Shown: piece by piece, positions 26-15,216 of the stretch | Layout: each line of letters begins with the position of its first letter | Position numbering within the stretch: position 1 is the stretch's first letter | Source of the DNA: Erysipelotrichaceae bacterium | GTDB lineage: Bacteria > Bacillota_I > Bacilli_A > Erysipelotrichales > Erysipelotrichaceae | Length of the DNA: 44,050 nt | Assembly: GCA_030528085.1 (NCBI GenBank) | Contig: JAUMZN010000005.1 | Location: 1 to 44,050, forward strand | Reading direction: 5' to 3' | The notes under the pieces: generated by a model | Database searches by the model: none | The model's input: only the letters and a program-made list of their open reading frames with translations | What the model was told of the DNA's origin: nothing | Translations under genes and position numbers: made by a program

Positions 26-838
26 TCACTTCGCTAACTTAATGACATTGCTAATATTCCTATCAAAAATTTCAATGACGTCAAAAACCACCTTCGGATT
101 TGTTCCTAGTTGAAAATCATCAAACCGTTTTACTTCCAACAAACAATCTCCAACATAGTGTTGCGGTTTATAGAATTTATATACCTCTTCAAGAACACAA
201 TCCGTAACTGATTTAATGCATTCACAGCCTGTTTCATCACGTACATAAAACTCTTCATTATAGGTATCCATCGCCGAAAAAAGTTGGTATCTAAGTTCAT
301 TAGGCAGTTTCCAACTTTTTTTATTTTCTTTATTCCTTAATGAAAATGGAATATACACATCCGACCTCTTCGTATATGGCCTCCACGCATAAACATCTCT
401 TCCTGATATTTTTCTCGCAACAAATAATTCATATCCATCTTCTTGAAGTAGTTCATTTATTCTTTGTAAGTAACCCCTCCAGTCTTCTCCATCGTCTCTG
501 ACCTCCGGATGAAAAACCTCACAAAGAAAATTTAAAAAAACTGCATCTTCTCCATTGAATAATTGAAATCTTTCATCATCAAAAATCCATTCATATGGAT
601 AATCTCCATTTAATGTATGCATCTTTATTTCTTCTGCGGCATTAGAAAGCCTAGGATCCTGACTTTCCCATTTTTCCAAGTCATACAGTCTATTAAGAAA
701 CCCCACAATTTCAATACATCCATAATAAGGGTAAAAAACAGAAATCTCATAATCCATTATCAAAGGATTATAGATAGTTATTCCGTTTTTAAATAAATCA
801 ATTATATCTCTTCTAGTGACTCTAGAAATATTTGCCAT
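26..838 (-). CDS. AbiJ-NTD-like abortive infection family protein
   Basis: A 270-residue cytoplasmic protein with no signal peptide or membrane segment. Residues about 5-155 resemble the AbiJ N-terminal domain (NTD3-type) found in phage-defence proteins: an ITRRDI-like start (VTRRDIIDLF), the FLNRLYDLE segment, the WIFDDERFQLFNG segment, the FLCEVFHPEVR segment and the ISGRDVY end. The remaining roughly 110 residues are not recognised and would be the effector half; no HEPN RX4-6H motif is obvious. The start ATG is preceded by GAGGT at good spacing. The gene lies just outside a helicase/methyltransferase pair on the same strand, which supports a defence role, but the two are separated by about 310 bases and a likely terminator, so it is probably a separate unit. 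The family call rests on remembered pattern similarity. Confidence 0.6.
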   Translation of the reverse strand: MANISRVTRRDIIDLFKNGITIYNPLIMDYEISVFYPYYGCIEIVGFLNRLYDLEKWESQDPRLSNAAEEIKMHTLNGDYPYEWIFDDERFQLFNGEDAVFLNFLCEVFHPEVRDDGEDWRGYLQRINELLQEDGYELFVARKISGRDVYAWRPYTKRSDVYIPFSLRNKENKKSWKLPNELRYQLFSAMDTYNEEFYVRDETGCECIKSVTDCVLEEVYKFYKPQHYVGDCLLEVKRFDDFQLGTNPKVVFDVIEIFDRNISNVIKLAK

Positions 839-1148: not shown

Positions 1149-4100
1149 TTACTCTGGGAATAATTCATCTAACTTTTCTTCTAAATTTCCGTTTTTGACG
1201 AACTCAAGCGCGTCTACCTTACGCAAGTTATGTTTCTTAATCTTGCCCATAAAGTCGAAACCTAAAATAAAGTTCTCTGTAATCTTATATAAGATTTCTG
1301 TTGGGGCTAGTCCATAAACTTGCTTTTCGAAAATATATTGTAGGCGTTCGTTGTCATCTGGATAAAGTTGCTTCATCTTTGGACTTCGATATAATCGCTT
1401 CACAATTTCAGCAATATACAATCCGGATTTCATATACAGATCAATGAATGTTTCATCCGGATTATCGAAAATACCTGGATTTTCTTTTTCCAAATCATCG
1501 ACCATTTGTTTCACCACTTTTTTCGGAGTAAAGATTTGGTTGTTTTCCTGTGGTGGAATATAGTCGAAAATATCGCCTTTGATATTTTCTTTCATGTAGC
1601 TAGAAAGCTTATCTTTTTTAGTCATGAATTCACGAACAGATTCATTGAAAACAACTTCATCAAACAAATGACCTTTGAATTCTTCCATTTCACCCGTTTC
1701 CGGATTCAACCTTGTTCCACCATCCCGTAAGAAGCGGAAATCTTCTAGACTTGTGCTTGTTACTTCTTGGAATACCTCAGCTGGAACGATTTGGTCAAAA
1801 TTGGAAAGAGTAATTTGTCTTTCCATATGGTTTTCATCCACACCGTATGCCATCAAGAATGCAGGGATTGTTCTCGTGAATCCACGTAAGCGATCTTTAA
1901 TATTAATCTGTACCGCATTACTTTCTTTTTCTTGTTTTGCGGTCTCAACAGTTCTGACAATTTCTTGGCTAGCTTGCTTTATGTAGCTTTCAGCCGCATT
2001 ATTTAAATCTTCTTTATAGGACTGATCTGCTTCTTCGATTTTCTTATCAAAAATCTCATTCACTTTCACAATTTGTTCATCATCGACAGCTTTTTCCAAT
2101 TCTTGGCTGCGTTGATGTTCAATTTTAGTTGTTTCAATATTGTGGTTAGTATGAATCTTATCAATCATACGATCCGCATCATCTTTGAGTTTTTTATCTA
2201 ATTTCTTTTTCTGAGTTGATGTGAGATCCTTACCATATTCTTCTTTCGCGACTTCTTTGAGTGGATCTACAACAGAAACTTGTAGCTCTTTCTTTAACCG
2301 ATTCAATTCCTTTTGTTTTTCATTTGGCTCTTTGGCAATTGCCATGGAACGAATACTTTCACTTAACACATCTTGAGTAGCATAGATTTTCGCTCCAAAA
2401 ATATTGTTAGCTTTTTCTTCGATAATTGGTTCTGGAATATCGATATTTCCTTCTTCATCTAGATATAGATCATCCATATCTTCTACGTAAATCTTGGCAT
2501 CTTTTTCTTCAACCGGTTCAAATTTATTTAAAATATCAAGAACCGATTGTGGTGCTCGAAAGACATTCGTCACATTTTGGAATAAGAAGTTAGACATAAA
2601 ACCACGATTGACAACTTCTTGAGATTTCAGTTTTCTTGGCACCAAAAGAACTTGTTCGGCATCAAGTTCAACCATTTTTCCGTTTTTATCTTCGCCAATA
2701 ACCGGGAAGAAATTTAAGAGTTCTCGAACATTATCTTTATGTTGATCTGCTGTTCCTTTGGAATCTGCAGTATCTGTCGATAATCCATTCGCAAATTCTT
2801 CATACATCGTTAATGTTCGAGCTGGATCAAAATCAAAGACATAAGCTTGTTCTTTTCGATAATTTTGTCCGTTCTTTTTATAACGCCATGGATTTTGTGA
2901 ACGGAAAGCCGCCTGCATATACAGCGCTGGTGATTTCATACTAGAAAGCATCATCACCGCTGTCCATTCTGGAATCGTCACTCCTGTTGTCAGCTGACCA
3001 ACAGAAAGTGTGATCGTTTTCTCGTTTTCATCAATCGCCTTACGCACCTTGTCATAAGACTTCATATTTTCTTCATCATCCGAAAGCTTACCATCCCCTG
3101 CAGCGAGAACAATTTCGTAATCATTAAAAATCGGATGTTCTTTTAATTTTCTCGCTAGTGCTTTGGCAGAATCCACTCGATTCAATAACCAGAACGTATG
3201 TTTCAATTCATCGCGTAATTCCGGTGTAGAATATGGAAACTTCTCATAAGTCACCATTGCATCGAGAAATTTATCCACATCTGGATCATGTACAAATTCA
3301 CCTTTTCCATTCGTCGCAAAAAATTCATTCAAATCAAATGCGTATTCTTCGGTTTCACCATTCAAATCAATCCCTTGTGAGATTTCATCTTTGATGATTT
3401 CTGACATTTGATAAGTAAACAAATTCAAACGTGGTAAAGAAGCATAAGGATTTTCAGAATCCATTGTTTTTTCTGTTGTGCCCCAATTTTGTTTCGCGCG
3501 TTGCTCATCCGCATAAGTCCAGTCAAAGATATTTTCTTCAGTGAATTTTTCATTCGCAATTGCCTTAAATGGAGTACCAGAAAGATGAAGTTTAAATCCC
3601 GGTTGCATCCGATCAAATGCAATTTCCGATTTTAAAGTATCCGTTCCTTCATGCGCTTCATCTAGAACAATCAAATCCCATTGTTGTTCATACACTTCTT
3701 CCAGCTTGTCGTATTTACCACCACCGTAAATACTTCCCTTTAAATCTTGAAGAGAAATAAATTCAATACATTTTAAATCCGGATTTTCAGTGTGTTGCGT
3801 GATAAAGTCATGACGCGTTAAAACATGGGGCTTTTTCTTTAACGATGAAGTCTCCGAAACAAATGCATAACCCGATTCAGTTCCAAGGAACTTTTCATAA
3901 TCTTCGTACCAGCTATTGGCAATTGCAGGTCGGTTGGTCAAAATCAATACGTTTTTCGCCTTAACTTCTTTTGCGAAAGCATATGTCGTCAGTGTTTTCC
4001 CAAAACGAGGTTTTGCATTCCATAAAAATTCTCCTGTTTTAGGACGCAAACGATACGCATCCGCCGTCTTTTCCACTGCACGTCTTTGTTCAGCCCGAAG

Positions 4101-4478
4101 GTCATAAGGGATGACCCCTTCAGTTTTCAAAATTCCATGATCACGACGGAACTTACTAAATTGTAAAAGCGACTGATCACCATCTAAGTGGAACCATTCC
4201 GTTTCCGGAATTCTTTCGATTTTCTGTTTTTCCAGATAGCGATGGAAATCCGTATCATGAAAGATCTCTCCAGATCCATCATCAAAAACTGCCATTCCAC
4301 GCCATTCTTCAACAGCTAACGTATCAGAAGTATGAGTTTGTTGTTTAATTCGTGTTGAAACATCCTGCTTATCCGTATAACCAATCTTTACCCAACCATC
4401 ATGACGCTTGATTTCAGGAGTAGAGTAGGCATAACACATTGGGATAATCTGCTCAGCTGTTTTAATTTTGACTGCCAT
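1149..4478 (-). CDS. T5orf172/GIY-YIG-like domain + DEAH helicase + methyltransferase-like tail
   Basis: A 1109-residue protein with at least three parts. Residues about 12-100 look like a T5orf172/GIY-YIG-type nuclease domain: CYAYS (Y16, Y18), VKIGYT (30-35), R43 and TEWF (E94). Residues about 120-560 are an SF2 helicase: Q-motif-like LRAEQRRAV, motif I PRFGKT (K161), DEAH at 273-276, SGTP at 300-303 and a motif VI-like QAAFRSQNPWR. A long charged, coiled-coil-like stretch follows. The C-terminal about 160 residues resemble the front half of an adenine methyltransferase: QIFTPKKVV (motif X-like), then FIDLYMKSGLY where an active enzyme has D-P-A-C-G-S-G; no NPPY motif IV follows. It starts one base after the stop of the methyltransferase gene (TAAGATG), so the two are translationally coupled. 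Probable role is nucleolytic or translocating subunit of a restriction-type defence system. Activity of the nuclease domain is inferred. Confidence 0.8.
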   Translation of the reverse strand: MAVKIKTAEQIIPMCYAYSTPEIKRHDGWVKIGYTDKQDVSTRIKQQTHTSDTLAVEEWRGMAVFDDGSGEIFHDTDFHRYLEKQKIERIPETEWFHLDGDQSLLQFSKFRRDHGILKTEGVIPYDLRAEQRRAVEKTADAYRLRPKTGEFLWNAKPRFGKTLTTYAFAKEVKAKNVLILTNRPAIANSWYEDYEKFLGTESGYAFVSETSSLKKKPHVLTRHDFITQHTENPDLKCIEFISLQDLKGSIYGGGKYDKLEEVYEQQWDLIVLDEAHEGTDTLKSEIAFDRMQPGFKLHLSGTPFKAIANEKFTEENIFDWTYADEQRAKQNWGTTEKTMDSENPYASLPRLNLFTYQMSEIIKDEISQGIDLNGETEEYAFDLNEFFATNGKGEFVHDPDVDKFLDAMVTYEKFPYSTPELRDELKHTFWLLNRVDSAKALARKLKEHPIFNDYEIVLAAGDGKLSDDEENMKSYDKVRKAIDENEKTITLSVGQLTTGVTIPEWTAVMMLSSMKSPALYMQAAFRSQNPWRYKKNGQNYRKEQAYVFDFDPARTLTMYEEFANGLSTDTADSKGTADQHKDNVRELLNFFPVIGEDKNGKMVELDAEQVLLVPRKLKSQEVVNRGFMSNFLFQNVTNVFRAPQSVLDILNKFEPVEEKDAKIYVEDMDDLYLDEEGNIDIPEPIIEEKANNIFGAKIYATQDVLSESIRSMAIAKEPNEKQKELNRLKKELQVSVVDPLKEVAKEEYGKDLTSTQKKKLDKKLKDDADRMIDKIHTNHNIETTKIEHQRSQELEKAVDDEQIVKVNEIFDKKIEEADQSYKEDLNNAAESYIKQASQEIVRTVETAKQEKESNAVQINIKDRLRGFTRTIPAFLMAYGVDENHMERQITLSNFDQIVPAEVFQEVTSTSLEDFRFLRDGGTRLNPETGEMEEFKGHLFDEVVFNESVREFMTKKDKLSSYMKENIKGDIFDYIPPQENNQIFTPKKVVKQMVDDLEKENPGIFDNPDETFIDLYMKSGLYIAEIVKRLYRSPKMKQLYPDDNERLQYIFEKQVYGLAPTEILYKITENFILGFDFMGKIKKHNLRKVDALEFVKNGNLEEKLDELFPE

Positions 4479-4479
4479 C

Positions 4480-6423
4480 TTATTCCATCTCCTTCACATG
4501 TGTTTCAATAAACTCAATCTCTTCAGGGGATAAACCATATTTTTTATATAGTTGTTGATCGATCTCTGGAATAGACTTAGACCAATCAATATCAGAGTTG
4601 TTAGTGAAATCTTGAAGTGGGACAAACCCCATAGTAAGTTTTGATAGATTAATAGAACTAACCGATTGCAGAATTAAATATCTGACAAATTTTGTAGATA
4701 AATATTTGTATAAATTTTTAGCTTCGCTTTCCTCACTATAATTACCCACTAGGAAATAAGAATGAGTACATACTTCATTAGGACCAATAACTTTCATAGA
4801 ACTTGGAATTACCCTAAACGTACCATCTTTGGATGGTTCATTAGCATGCTCAGAACTCGTCTTGCTAACAAGAACCTTATAACCAGAGATATATTCAATG
4901 CCCTTCTTAATTATTTCTTTATCTATATATGTTATGGAATTGCTAGAATAAAGTCTAAGCGAATTAGGACCTCTTTCTATTGATCCTCTTACATTAGTCG
5001 ACAAACCAAATGGCATCAAAGAACTACATATAGTTGCCAAATTTTCTGACTGATAACTCCATACTTTATGAATTATTTCCAAAGCAGCATTAGATCTAAC
5101 AAACACGGGATACTCATCTAATTTTCTCATCGATGAACTTCTAATGCCATTCGAAACATGCGTATAATCGCACTTGCTGTGAATCTTATTATCCATTTGG
5201 AAAATACAGCAACCCCCACTTATACTTAGTCCAGAGAAGCAATCCTTAGCATTTTGGAAATCTATTAACTTATACACATGTCCAGATTTAAGCATCAAAT
5301 CTCTAAATCCATCTAATCCCATTCCTCCGGCAAACCATCTCGACGGTATGATCATCGAAATAATTGAAGGTTGTAGTTTTTGAGCTTGTTCAATAATTTT
5401 TTGATAAACGGGTTTTGCTTGTTTATTGTTCTCACCAGAAAACTCCATATATGGTGGATTCCCGATCACAACAGAAAATTTTCGTTTACTCATGCCTATT
5501 CCTTCTTTCATCTCTCTAATTGTCATTTTAGCTTTCTTATCCCACCAATTGATTTTTACGGGTGGTGAAGTTGTTCCGTCATTCGTTTGTTCTGTTTCAA
5601 AAAAATCAAATAATGAGGGCTGAACAAACTGATCTATAGGAACTCCAACTGGAATACAATCTGTTAATCCATCCATTTGGAATAAATTCCAACAAATGAT
5701 GTCTGCGATTTGTTCTTGTTGTTTAACTGTTAAATCTTGCTTCCAGATCTCTTTTGCATTTTCCAACAATGTCAAATATACGTTGACTCTTCCAATGAGA
5801 AGGCTATCCCCTTGAAACTCATAACCGTATGTTGATTTCAATGCCTTCAATGCCCATTTATACCAATCCTCAAAATTATTCGTATTCTCTGTAACGACTC
5901 TCAGTTTTCGATCAAATAAACCCACTCGATCTTGAATATTAATTGGATTTCCCGTAGAAGAATCGTAACGAGAAACAAGGAACGGTGCTTCTCCACATGT
6001 GATTTCTAGAACTTTTCGACTCACATATTCTTTCCATGTCTTTTTATCTTGATTTAGAAAACTTATGTGATCCGCATTCACAATCCAATTCTTATCTTCT
6101 TGTTGATTGAACCCTTTTTTATCATCAAACCAATCTTGATCGATCTGGTTATTCATCAAATTACAAATCCAAGCCGGAGTATATACTTCGGCATTCTTTT
6201 TTGTTCTCTCTTTTTGAACATCTAAAGACTTTAGAATTCTTGGTTGCAAAAAGCCTGATTTTATCACTTGTTCAAACAACATTTGTTGGTCTCTCTGATA
6301 CCCTTTTCCCCGATCTGAATAGGAGTCGGTCGCCCAAATGATATTTTTTCCCGTTGTCTTATCCATCAATAGTTTGTTTAAAACCGGGTTATGCAGTTCA
6401 TTGAGTTGAATGAGATGATCCAA
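4480..6423 (-). CDS. Eco57I-type adenine-specific DNA methyltransferase
   Basis: A 647-residue N6-adenine methyltransferase of the Eco57I/TaqI-like class. Motif X-like NAEVYTPAWICNLM lies near residue 77-90, a motif I variant (LEITCGEAPFLVSRYD) near 140, and the catalytic motif IV NPPY in VVIGNPPYMEFSG near 323. The last about 250 residues would form the target recognition region. The start is a TTG at 6423, chosen because AAGGAGGAG sits six bases upstream and no ATG is as well placed. It is the first gene of a two-gene operon with the helicase. It probably methylates host DNA at the site that the helicase/nuclease partner attacks. The partner carries a second, degenerate methyltransferase-like segment, which is unusual. 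A fused enzyme is excluded by the TAA at 4480-4482. Confidence 0.85.
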   Translation of the reverse strand: MDHLIQLNELHNPVLNKLLMDKTTGKNIIWATDSYSDRGKGYQRDQQMLFEQVIKSGFLQPRILKSLDVQKERTKKNAEVYTPAWICNLMNNQIDQDWFDDKKGFNQQEDKNWIVNADHISFLNQDKKTWKEYVSRKVLEITCGEAPFLVSRYDSSTGNPINIQDRVGLFDRKLRVVTENTNNFEDWYKWALKALKSTYGYEFQGDSLLIGRVNVYLTLLENAKEIWKQDLTVKQQEQIADIICWNLFQMDGLTDCIPVGVPIDQFVQPSLFDFFETEQTNDGTTSPPVKINWWDKKAKMTIREMKEGIGMSKRKFSVVIGNPPYMEFSGENNKQAKPVYQKIIEQAQKLQPSIISMIIPSRWFAGGMGLDGFRDLMLKSGHVYKLIDFQNAKDCFSGLSISGGCCIFQMDNKIHSKCDYTHVSNGIRSSSMRKLDEYPVFVRSNAALEIIHKVWSYQSENLATICSSLMPFGLSTNVRGSIERGPNSLRLYSSNSITYIDKEIIKKGIEYISGYKVLVSKTSSEHANEPSKDGTFRVIPSSMKVIGPNEVCTHSYFLVGNYSEESEAKNLYKYLSTKFVRYLILQSVSSINLSKLTMGFVPLQDFTNNSDIDWSKSIPEIDQQLYKKYGLSPEEIEFIETHVKEME

Positions 6424-11817: not shown

Positions 11818-13475
11818 TAGCTCATTCTCCCATGTTCAACAGAATAAACTTGATCGGCAATTCGCATCGTCGATTTACGATGCGAAACGAGAATGACTGT
11901 TTTTCCCTCACGCTCTTCTTGCAGCGATTTTAAAATCACCGCTTCATTTAAACTATCGAGATTACTAGTCGGTTCATCCAATAACATCAATGGCGCATCA
12001 TGCAAAAATGCTCTTGCTAAACCTAATCGCTGTTGTTCGCCACCTGATAAAGTGTCGCCTAATTCTCCAACTTGCGTTTCATAGCCATTTGGCAAGCTCA
12101 TAATGAAATCATGGACAGAAGCTTGCTTGCAGGCTTGTTCGATTTCTTCTTGGGTTGCATCCAATTTGGCAATTTTAAGATTGTTCGCAATCGTGTCATG
12201 GAATAGATGCGTTTCTTGCGTGACAAAACTTTCCAGATCACGCAGATTTTGAGTATTGATCGCATCAATATCCGTATTCGAAATTTGAATTTTGCCTTGT
12301 TGGACGCTCCAAAAGCGCATCAAAAGTTTTAAGAGTGTCGATTTTCCACTACCGCTTCTGCCGGATATGCCAATGACAGAATGTTTAGGAATATCGATCG
12401 AAATATCAGAAAGAATCGTTTCTCCACCATATGAGAAAGTGACATGATCCACATCTGCTTTTTCAAAAGAAATGTTTGGCTGACCGCTGATTTCTTGAAC
12501 AACTGGCGTTTCATCCAAAATATCCAAAACGCGATTTCCTGCCGCAAATGTGTTTTGAAGTGTACTGCCAAGATTGGCTAAAGCTACAACAGGACCAAAG
12601 GAGCTCATTAAAGCGATGACTGGAATTAAAACGCCATCAAAGCCAATGACACCTTTCATCGATAACAGCGTTGAAGCCCATAACATCAATAAATCAAACC
12701 CTAGAATAACGGTATTGGTAATCGCCGTATTGCGTCCGGCAATTCGTTTCATCTTTTCTTCTTGTAAAGACAACTCATCTGTTTGGCGGTTCATTTCCTG
12801 CAGTCTTTGTTGTCCCGTTCCATATTGAATTGTTTCTAAAAGACCACGCAAACTATCTAAGACAAAACTGCTCAACTCGCCAGACTGTTGGCGGAATCGT
12901 TTCCCTAAATCGCCATTGAGTTTAGAAATCAATACCGGAATCACAACACCTACGCAAATATATGCAGCTAGTGCAATGATGCCTAAAAGCCAATGGAATG
13001 AGCCGATAAATAAGCTCATCAAAATACTGAACAATAAAGCGATTGCTGCTGGTGAAATCGTATGGGCATAGAACACTTCTAAAAGTTCAATATCCGCTGT
13101 GATGACGGAAATCAAATTTCCTTTATCTTTGCCTTCAAGTTTTGCCGGACATAATTTGCGCAATGCCACAAAAATATGATTGCGAATTAATGCGAGCAAT
13201 TTAAAGGCGATGAAATGGTTGCACGCTTGTTCTCCATAACGAAGAAAGCCACGTAAAATCGCAATGATGGCAATGACAATAAAGATCGTTTGCAAGCTCA
13301 TCAAAGCTGAATAGCCAAGTACATTCAAAACGGCATAGCCGCCAAAAATCGTAATCCATGTCGCACACAAATGACCTAATAATCCAAGTGTAATCGCTAA
13401 AATCATATAGCCAGTCAATGGTTTTACTAAACCGATCAAGCGGGACATGACTTGAATATTACTTCTTCTTTTCAT
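11817..13475 (-). CDS. cydC: ABC exporter subunit, CydC-like
   Basis: A fused membrane/ATPase half-transporter of about 552 residues. Six hydrophobic segments in the first about 310 residues are followed by an ATPase domain with Walker A GRSGSGKST, signature LSGGEQQR and Walker B LMLLDEPTSNLD. I place the start at the ATG 13475, where the sequence begins MKRRSNIQ, rather than at the longer frame that begins at 13541, because it lies four bases after the stop of the upstream partner (TAGATCGATG) and behind AAAGGATGG. It would form a heterodimer with the neighbouring CydD-like subunit. In E. coli CydDC moves cysteine or glutathione outward and supports cytochrome bd assembly and NO tolerance; no cytochrome genes are seen here, so the substrate is open. 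Confidence 0.75.
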   Translation of the reverse strand: MKRRSNIQVMSRLIGLVKPLTGYMILAITLGLLGHLCATWITIFGGYAVLNVLGYSALMSLQTIFIVIAIIAILRGFLRYGEQACNHFIAFKLLALIRNHIFVALRKLCPAKLEGKDKGNLISVITADIELLEVFYAHTISPAAIALLFSILMSLFIGSFHWLLGIIALAAYICVGVVIPVLISKLNGDLGKRFRQQSGELSSFVLDSLRGLLETIQYGTGQQRLQEMNRQTDELSLQEEKMKRIAGRNTAITNTVILGFDLLMLWASTLLSMKGVIGFDGVLIPVIALMSSFGPVVALANLGSTLQNTFAAGNRVLDILDETPVVQEISGQPNISFEKADVDHVTFSYGGETILSDISIDIPKHSVIGISGRSGSGKSTLLKLLMRFWSVQQGKIQISNTDIDAINTQNLRDLESFVTQETHLFHDTIANNLKIAKLDATQEEIEQACKQASVHDFIMSLPNGYETQVGELGDTLSGGEQQRLGLARAFLHDAPLMLLDEPTSNLDSLNEAVILKSLQEEREGKTVILVSHRKSTMRIADQVYSVEHGRMS

Positions 13476-13479
13476 CGAT

Positions 13480-15216
13480 CTACGCCATCCTTTCCATTCC
13501 ATATTGTTCAAGTGATTGTTGGGCATTCCACAGTTTTGCATAATGACCCTTTGTGTCTAAAAGTTCTTGATGCACGCCTTGTTCTACGACGTTTCCATGA
13601 TCCAAAACATAAATATTGTCGGCTTTGACGACGTTGGCTAAGCGGTGTGAAATCAAAATCACCGTTTTCGTTTTTGCGAGCTCATGAATTTGTGCCATGA
13701 TTTCATCTTCACTTTCCACATCGATGTTGGACGTTGCTTCATCAAAAATGTAAATCGAACTATCGTGCAGCAACGCTCTAGCCAGAGCTAATCGCTGACA
13801 TTGGCCACCAGAAAGATTGGCTGCTTTTTCCAATAAAGGCGTATCCAGACCTTGTTCGCTTCTTAAAAATTGTTCGAGATTCACTTGCTTGAGCACAGAC
13901 CATAACTCATCATCTGAAGCATCCGGATTTGCCATCAATAAGTTTTCACGCACGGTGCCTTTAAACAAATAGCTGTTGCGCCCAATATAAGTCACATGTT
14001 TCATCAAGTTTTCTTCTTGAATATTGGCGAGTTCTACTCCACCGATCGTGACAGAACCGGCATAGTGTTTATTTCGCCCCATCAAAATGCCAGCTGTTGT
14101 CGATTTGCCACAGCCGCTTTCGCCAACGATTGCTGTAAAGCTTCCTTTTGGAAAAGATAGGTCGATGCCATGAAGAATTTCGCGATCTTGATCATAAGAA
14201 AAACGCAGGTCTGAGCAGAGAATTGAACAATCTTGTGGGACACGGCCTTCTTGGATTGGCTCCTCTGGTAAATCGAGCAGGCGGAAAATTTTATCGCTCG
14301 CTGCCATTCCATTCATCGCAATATGGAAAAACGAACCGAGTAAGCGCATCGGCAAGAAGAAATCTGCCGACAACAAAATAATGAGCAGACAGCCATATAA
14401 AGAAACATTGCCTTGCGCATATTGGGTGATTGCTAAAATAATTCCTAAAGCAGCCCCACCATATGCGACTAAATCCATGATCGTGATGGAGTTTAGCTGC
14501 ATCGTCAAAACTTTCATCGTAATTTTGCGAAACTCTTCTGCTTCTTGATTCATCTTTTCATTTTGATATGCATCTGCTTGATAGATTTTTAATGTCGTCA
14601 ACCCTTGCAGGTTTTCTAAAAACGTATCCCCTAATGCGACATATTTTCCCCAATATTTAGCCAGCAGCTTTTTGGCAAACGTTTGCACGCCGGCAATCGC
14701 AATGGGAATTAAAGGAACACAAAGAAATAAAGCGAGTGCAGAAAGGAAATTGACAAAACCCAATACGACAAAGAGCGTTAATGGGGCAAGCATCGCATAG
14801 AAAAATTGTGGTAAATAAGCTCCGAAATACGTTTCTAATTGTTCAACCCCTTCAACAGCTACTTGGACCACTTCACTAGTTTGAACTTGTTCTTGATATG
14901 AAGCCCCTAAACGCAAAAGTTTTTGATAAATCTTCTCGCGCAATGTCCTTTTGACTGCTTTTGAAGATAAATACGCCATGCGGCTAGCAAGTGTCGCACA
15001 AATAAAGCGAATAATCAGTGCCACTACCATCGTGATCCCTGTAATCCAAAGCATTGAAGAATCGACTTGTTGCAGGTAGATATTGGCGAGTAATTTGCTG
15101 ATACTCATCATCATTGCGATATTGGCAAGCAATGAGCACCATTGTAAAAGCACATTAGCCACAATGTATTTCTTGCTTTGCGAGACTGTACCAATGAGTC
15201 GTTTATTCATCATCAT
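13480..15216 (-). CDS. cydD: ABC exporter subunit, CydD-like
   Basis: A half-transporter of about 578 residues, first gene of a four-gene operon. The membrane part has the CydD-like segments VEGVEQLETYFGAYLPQ and FLENLQGLTTLKIY and a TMKVLTMQL stretch. The ATPase part has GESGCGKST, signature LSGGQCQR and Walker B IYIFDEATSNID. I choose the first of three consecutive ATGs at 15216, preceded by GGAAGGAAG, over a longer frame from 15276, which has no ribosome binding site and overlaps a GTTAG/CTAAC inverted repeat. Partner of the CydC-like subunit. The promoter and a palindromic operator lie about 200 bases upstream. Assignment to CydD rather than another heterodimeric exporter is likely but not certain. 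Confidence 0.75.
   Translation of the reverse strand: MMMNKRLIGTVSQSKKYIVANVLLQWCSLLANIAMMMSISKLLANIYLQQVDSSMLWITGITMVVALIIRFICATLASRMAYLSSKAVKRTLREKIYQKLLRLGASYQEQVQTSEVVQVAVEGVEQLETYFGAYLPQFFYAMLAPLTLFVVLGFVNFLSALALFLCVPLIPIAIAGVQTFAKKLLAKYWGKYVALGDTFLENLQGLTTLKIYQADAYQNEKMNQEAEEFRKITMKVLTMQLNSITIMDLVAYGGAALGIILAITQYAQGNVSLYGCLLIILLSADFFLPMRLLGSFFHIAMNGMAASDKIFRLLDLPEEPIQEGRVPQDCSILCSDLRFSYDQDREILHGIDLSFPKGSFTAIVGESGCGKSTTAGILMGRNKHYAGSVTIGGVELANIQEENLMKHVTYIGRNSYLFKGTVRENLLMANPDASDDELWSVLKQVNLEQFLRSEQGLDTPLLEKAANLSGGQCQRLALARALLHDSSIYIFDEATSNIDVESEDEIMAQIHELAKTKTVILISHRLANVVKADNIYVLDHGNVVEQGVHQELLDTKGHYAKLWNAQQSLEQYGMERMA

Follow-up and report, generated by a model that had tools for sequence, protein, structure and literature searches.

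The locus described here raises the question of why a restriction protein should end in a methyltransferase-like tail when the adjoining gene already encodes a methyltransferase. The window, a 44,050-nucleotide stretch of an Erysipelotrichaceae contig (JAUMZN010000005.1), carries two co-directional open reading frames on the minus strand that are separated by a single base, with the gene for a 647-aa protein lying upstream of that for a 1109-aa protein (Table 1). The TTG start of the 647-aa methyltransferase gene is preceded by a ribosome site, AAGGAGGAG, and the N-terminus of the protein lines up with the N-termini of its relatives in an alignment. Profiles built from relatives divide the pair into five modules, designated G (GIY-YIG-like), H (SF2 helicase), A (the tail of the 1109-aa protein), B (methyltransferase motifs X-III) and C (NPPY and the target-recognition domain, TRD). 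With a hyphen for fused modules and an oblique bar between separate genes, the layout of the pair is B-C / G-H-A. A gene for a protein with AbiJ N-terminal domain 3 (window 26-838; 5.8e-48) lies directly downstream on the same strand and forms a small defence cluster with the restriction pair.

Table 1. Features of the gene pair, in positions of the window
Feature	Position	Strand	Detail
Restriction gene, G-H-A	1149..4478	-	1109 aa, ATG start
Module G, GIY-YIG/T5orf172-like nuclease domain	4149..4454	-	aa 9-110
Module H, SF2 helicase	2586..4133	-	aa 116-631; PRFGKT, DEAH, SGTP, QxxFRxQ
Module A, methyltransferase N-half, paralogue of B, without NPPY	1155..1574	-	aa 969-1108
A motif X NQIFTPKKVV	1512-1541	-	sequence
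A motif I DLYMKSGLY; K1017 replaces Gly	1416..1442	-	K in 75/77 A sequences
A motif II YGLAP; acid lost	1302..1316	-	acidic in 0/77 A sequences
Methyltransferase gene, B-C fused	4480..6423	-	647 aa, TTG start
Module B, N-half, motifs X-III, canonical SAM site	5500..6423	-	aa 1-308; PADLOC PDLC03390 at aa 9-305
B motif I LEITCGEAPFL	5977..6009	-	C-G-E 41/41 in B1 relatives
Flexible B-C linker	5572..5643	-	aa 261-284, pLDDT under 50
Module C, NPPY half and target-recognition domain	4480..5481	-	aa 315-647
Catalytic motif IV NPPY in C	5449..5460	-	N-P-P 68/68, Y 67/68

An earlier note on this DNA had read the 1109-residue protein as a T5orf172/GIY-YIG-like domain followed by a DEAH helicase and a tail, and this order holds. 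The Pfam domain ResIII is found at residues 126-304 (1.2e-14), and the key helicase motifs of H are invariant across relatives. The T5orf172 match at residues 16-99 scores 19.2 bits in Pfam, below the cut-off of 20, which the N-terminus of one relative passes with 32 bits. Key residues of G are retained among relatives (Y16 in 63/63, G33 in 63/63, R43 in 73/75, D75 in 75/75), with Asp in all 75 sequences at the position of the usual GIY-YIG catalytic Glu. No match of the protein to an Mrr nuclease is listed by Pfam at E up to 1, and a sequence search of solved structures gave no usable relative of either window protein, only UvrB helicase similarity.

The 647-aa partner is predicted from its motifs to be a complete adenine methyltransferase. 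B-C has motif X, motif I, NPPY and a CamA/TaqI-like fold with a TRD, the features of a gamma-class m6A methyltransferase, and its motif order X-I-II-III-IV-TRD belongs to the gamma-class fold. Motif II carries E or D in 41/41 B1 relatives, Pfam finds Eco57I at residues 207-396 (1.5e-20), and the only NCBIfam match is a sub-threshold one to PglX. The first reading correctly placed NPPY in this gene and missed the point that the protein consists of two modules, B and C. In the window the single Eco57I domain crosses from B into C, and in the related locus L031 it crosses from A into C. A free C gene begins exactly at strand beta-4 (M-K-F-D...GNPPY) and so needs an N-half from another protein. 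Three virus records contain B and C, one as two genes and two fused, with neither A nor a helicase found on them; B-C thus appears to be complete as a methyltransferase, with A belonging to the helicase. The B half occurs alone in nine virus records (L115, L127, L129, L131, L132, L134, L137, L138 and L139), where no C, A or helicase was found on the record, and these viruses might borrow the C half of their host for phage DNA methylation or anti-restriction.

The tail of the restriction protein has the features first ascribed to it, namely motif X, the altered motif I DLYMKSGLY and no NPPY; rather than a complete degenerate methyltransferase it is a half, comprising motifs X to III without strand beta-4 onward. 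Profiles of A and B2 align as homologues from motif X to motif II (97.7% probability, E 1.6e-12), which by sequence makes A a conserved and altered paralogue of B. Conservation was counted over 77 non-redundant A sequences. The motif I position that holds Gly in 73/73 B sequences is Lys in 75 of these, the Gly after this Lys is present in all 77, and the pattern [DE]xxxK[ST]G[LVMI][YF] is retained across phyla. The Thr-Pro of motif X is likewise retained (76/77 and 77/77), and lineages with A-C genes have DPxCK[ST]GVFL, a near-standard motif I except for the Lys. With its motif X in place, A could still bind SAM or another ligand. The retention of the Lys and Gly across phyla indicates that A is maintained and not decayed, and the conserved Lys rules out a decaying degenerate tail. 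The G-H-A-C order seen in some relatives matches that of Type ISP enzymes (PMC4666363), as would be expected if A were the now functionless relic of a decayed ancestral fused ISP-like enzyme with B recruited as a rescue, but this is highly improbable given that the T-P, K and G are retained in 75-77 of the 77 sequences over many phyla and that A is missing from no complete locus.

The earlier note had proposed a search for the same system in other genomes, and running the module profiles on about 150 fetched loci yielded 50 non-redundant complete loci with 11 gene arrangements. A, B and an expressed C are present in these 50 loci, nearly all of which have exactly one of each; the exceptions are L112, with two B, and L121, with extra C copies. 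About 30 loci have C fused to A, eight (the window and seven others) have it fused to B, and in 12 it is free. Arrangements among relatives include B / C / G-H-A, B / G-H-A-C in lactic acid bacteria and enterococcal plasmids, B / G-H-A / C in actinobacteria, and B / A-C / G-H in proteobacteria, phages and others. Of 392 genomes sampled from the window's phylum, 24 contain the system, which also occurs on many plasmids. No intact complete locus with the helicase but without A was found among the collected loci; L118 gives no match to the A profile, yet DMSSKMGEF is present.

Several relatives have additional features. In L121 (10843-14795) two further copies come after the expressed C, one silent and lacking a start (11937-12985) and one inverted (13027-14001), inverted repeats cover the A/C junction and the C starts (160 nt at 76% and 33 nt at 97%), and a tyrosine recombinase (Pfam 1.9e-12) adjoins the copies, which look like an invertible specificity cassette. 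In L094 (6120-9145), from a genome of the same genus as the window, G-H-A is followed by a GmrSD_N-like gene, a broken A remnant and an Abi_2 gene. The copy on the Lactiplantibacillus plasmid LZ206p3 (L152:2983-6883) is broken into many fragments.

Structure models suggest that C can complete the same methyltransferase fold with either B or A. Prediction of the partner alone, also proposed in the first reading, gave a confident AlphaFold model of the window B-C (pLDDT 84.7, pTM 0.84) in which the main poor stretch is the linker at residues 261-284. Its best structural matches are CamA (residues 62-631, Z 21.9, rmsd 5.6, 432 aligned) and M.TaqI (residues 79-609, Z 14.5), and the alignment runs through both halves. 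The A-C protein of L043 was modelled with pLDDT 74.4 and pTM 0.74 and aligns with CamA over residues 13-489 (Z 20.4, rmsd 4.8, 398 aligned) and with M.TaqI over residues 26-477 (Z 17.1); its A half is poorly modelled past motif I, with residues 97-180 mostly at pLDDT under 50. The docking role suggested earlier for the tail is thereby upheld and sharpened, in that A appears able to complete the fold with C as B does, and a methylation-sensing role is a possible, candidate function. Where the arrangement is B / A-C / G-H, as in L043 (617-2134), a C-x2-C insert (GKCKYCGAS) separates A from C in the A-C protein.

Other readings assign the two N-halves differently. B-C could be a permanent methyltransferase while A docks elsewhere as a METTL3-METTL14-like pseudo-methyltransferase platform and leaves the fold of C uncompleted, which would suit the altered SAM motifs of A and the covalent joining of B and C in eight non-redundant loci, the window among them. 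This is unlikely, as about 30 loci have A running straight into beta-4/NPPY of C with no other N-half in cis, and the model of A-C is that of an entire CamA-like enzyme. The full fold obtained from both pairs could also mean that A-C and B-C are both active with SAM, each marking one strand of an asymmetric site. Asymmetric sites often require two activities, and M.TaqI itself lacks the first motif I Gly, but the motif II acid is missing from 77/77 A sequences, Lys stands for Gly in 75/77 and a single NPPY half is encoded in nearly all loci, all of which makes two active methyltransferases decidedly improbable.

The sharing of C between A and B, the preferred reading, is further addressed by the history of C. 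By helicase, the nearest relative of the window is L094, with helicases 79% identical, but the C modules of the two loci are only 38% identical, and the window C shows 49% identity to that of L106, a locus with A and C fused. The C tree places the window C among mostly A-fused C with 99% SH-aLRT, and its grouping with the C of L094 is rejected (p-AU 5.4e-9). The helicase tree, which has long branches and deepest joins that are unsure, clusters by architecture, whereas the C tree does so far less. From these sequence comparisons, C is taken to have moved between A-fused and B-fused loci, and the comparison of the two trees implies that C modules closely related to one another work with either A or B in cis, depending on the locus. 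Evolution of C together with its covalent partner is ruled out by the disagreement of the trees.

Taken as a whole, the modules, their conservation, the homology of A and B, the modelled completion of either fold by C and the exchange of C make it moderately probable that the locus encodes an ATP-dependent restriction-modification system built on a shared half-enzyme, C. This half would comprise beta-4 onward of a gamma-class m6A methyltransferase and supply the catalytic tyrosine as well as the sequence specificity. B·C, with its normal SAM site, would be the modification enzyme. A·C would still bind the target sequence but probably cannot use SAM, having lost the motif I Gly to Lys and the motif II acid, and would anchor the GIY-YIG/SF2 motor at the same sequence as B·C. 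An unmethylated site would then trigger ATP-driven movement and cutting, as in Type ISP and Type III systems (PMC4666363, PMC4490356), with cleavage presumably by G. A and B may either alternate on one C, which the flexible linker in the window B-C would allow, or each pair with its own copy of C within a single complex.

Since restriction and modification would both borrow the same C, a single swap of C would alter both specificities at once. The two activities always have to recognise one and the same sequence, and a half-enzyme that toggles between marking and attacking would make re-targeting a matter of one module swap and would explain a one-step reset of specificity. Such a system, with two protein halves that compete for a third or share it, would also be unusual, would offer a modular scaffold for engineered site-specific enzymes, and would make many genes labelled 'Type IIG' or 'N-6 DNA methylase' parts of one split machine. 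The exchange of C between a half that is active and binds SAM and an inactivated paralogue carried by a restriction motor might define a new organisational class, a tentative proposal with somewhat under an even chance of being correct. Literature on split or pseudo-methyltransferase restriction and on helicases combined with GIY-YIG or with Type IIG, searched with most subscription journals outside its scope, contains no description of a shared-half family.

Among named systems, PADLOC assigns helicase plus C to REase_MTase_IIG (PDLC03626) and B and C to MTase_II (PDLC03390 and PDLC03375, respectively). These matches would favour an ordinary Type II or IIG system with no shared-half mechanism, but the presence of a helicase motor, the incompleteness of both A and B as methyltransferases on their own and the sharing of C by two partners make such a system very unlikely; the Type II and IIG names omit the helicase, the split and the two N-halves. 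Type IIG/IIC enzymes are single chains with a nuclease, a full methyltransferase and a TRD but no helicase, unlike the two genes, helicase and split methyltransferase modules found here. CamA, M.TaqI and BREX PglX share the fold of the B-C and A-C models, but are unsplit single chains with one N-half each.

The closest working relative is Type ISP, although two of its defining features are absent from this system. Type ISP enzymes are ordered nuclease, SF2 helicase, spacer, methyltransferase and TRD (PMC4666363), and LlaGI and LlaBIII share the domain order of the fused G-H-A-C relatives, align with the B-C and A-C models and have an SF2 helicase motor like the one seen here (ResIII, invariant motifs); a sequence search gave no match to solved ISP entries. 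Type ISP enzymes are nevertheless single polypeptides that include a coupler and have a nuclease of the Mrr family (PD-(D/E)XK), whereas the window has two genes and a T5orf172/GIY-YIG-like N-terminus, motif I is altered in A, and a separate B gene supplying the SAM half accompanies every complete relative, even those with G-H-A-C fusions.

The view that the layout differs from classic Type I, III and IIG systems is borne out by the lack of an S gene, the gamma-class motif order and the combination of a helicase with split modules. In Type III systems such as EcoP15I (Mod2Res), the helicase-nuclease subunit likewise depends on the methyltransferase for specificity, and a division of labour between the two methyltransferase copies is known (PMC4490356). 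The EcoP15I Mod is, however, a full beta-class enzyme (DPPY) with the catalytic motif before the SAM motif, in contrast to the gamma-class order and shared half of the present system. Type I systems have a full-length HsdM and a separate HsdS with two TRDs, whereas here the TRD lies within C and no S gene was found among the open reading frames between or beside the window pair. What restriction and modification share is thus the S subunit in Type I and the whole Mod in Type III, and here, apparently, half of one fold.
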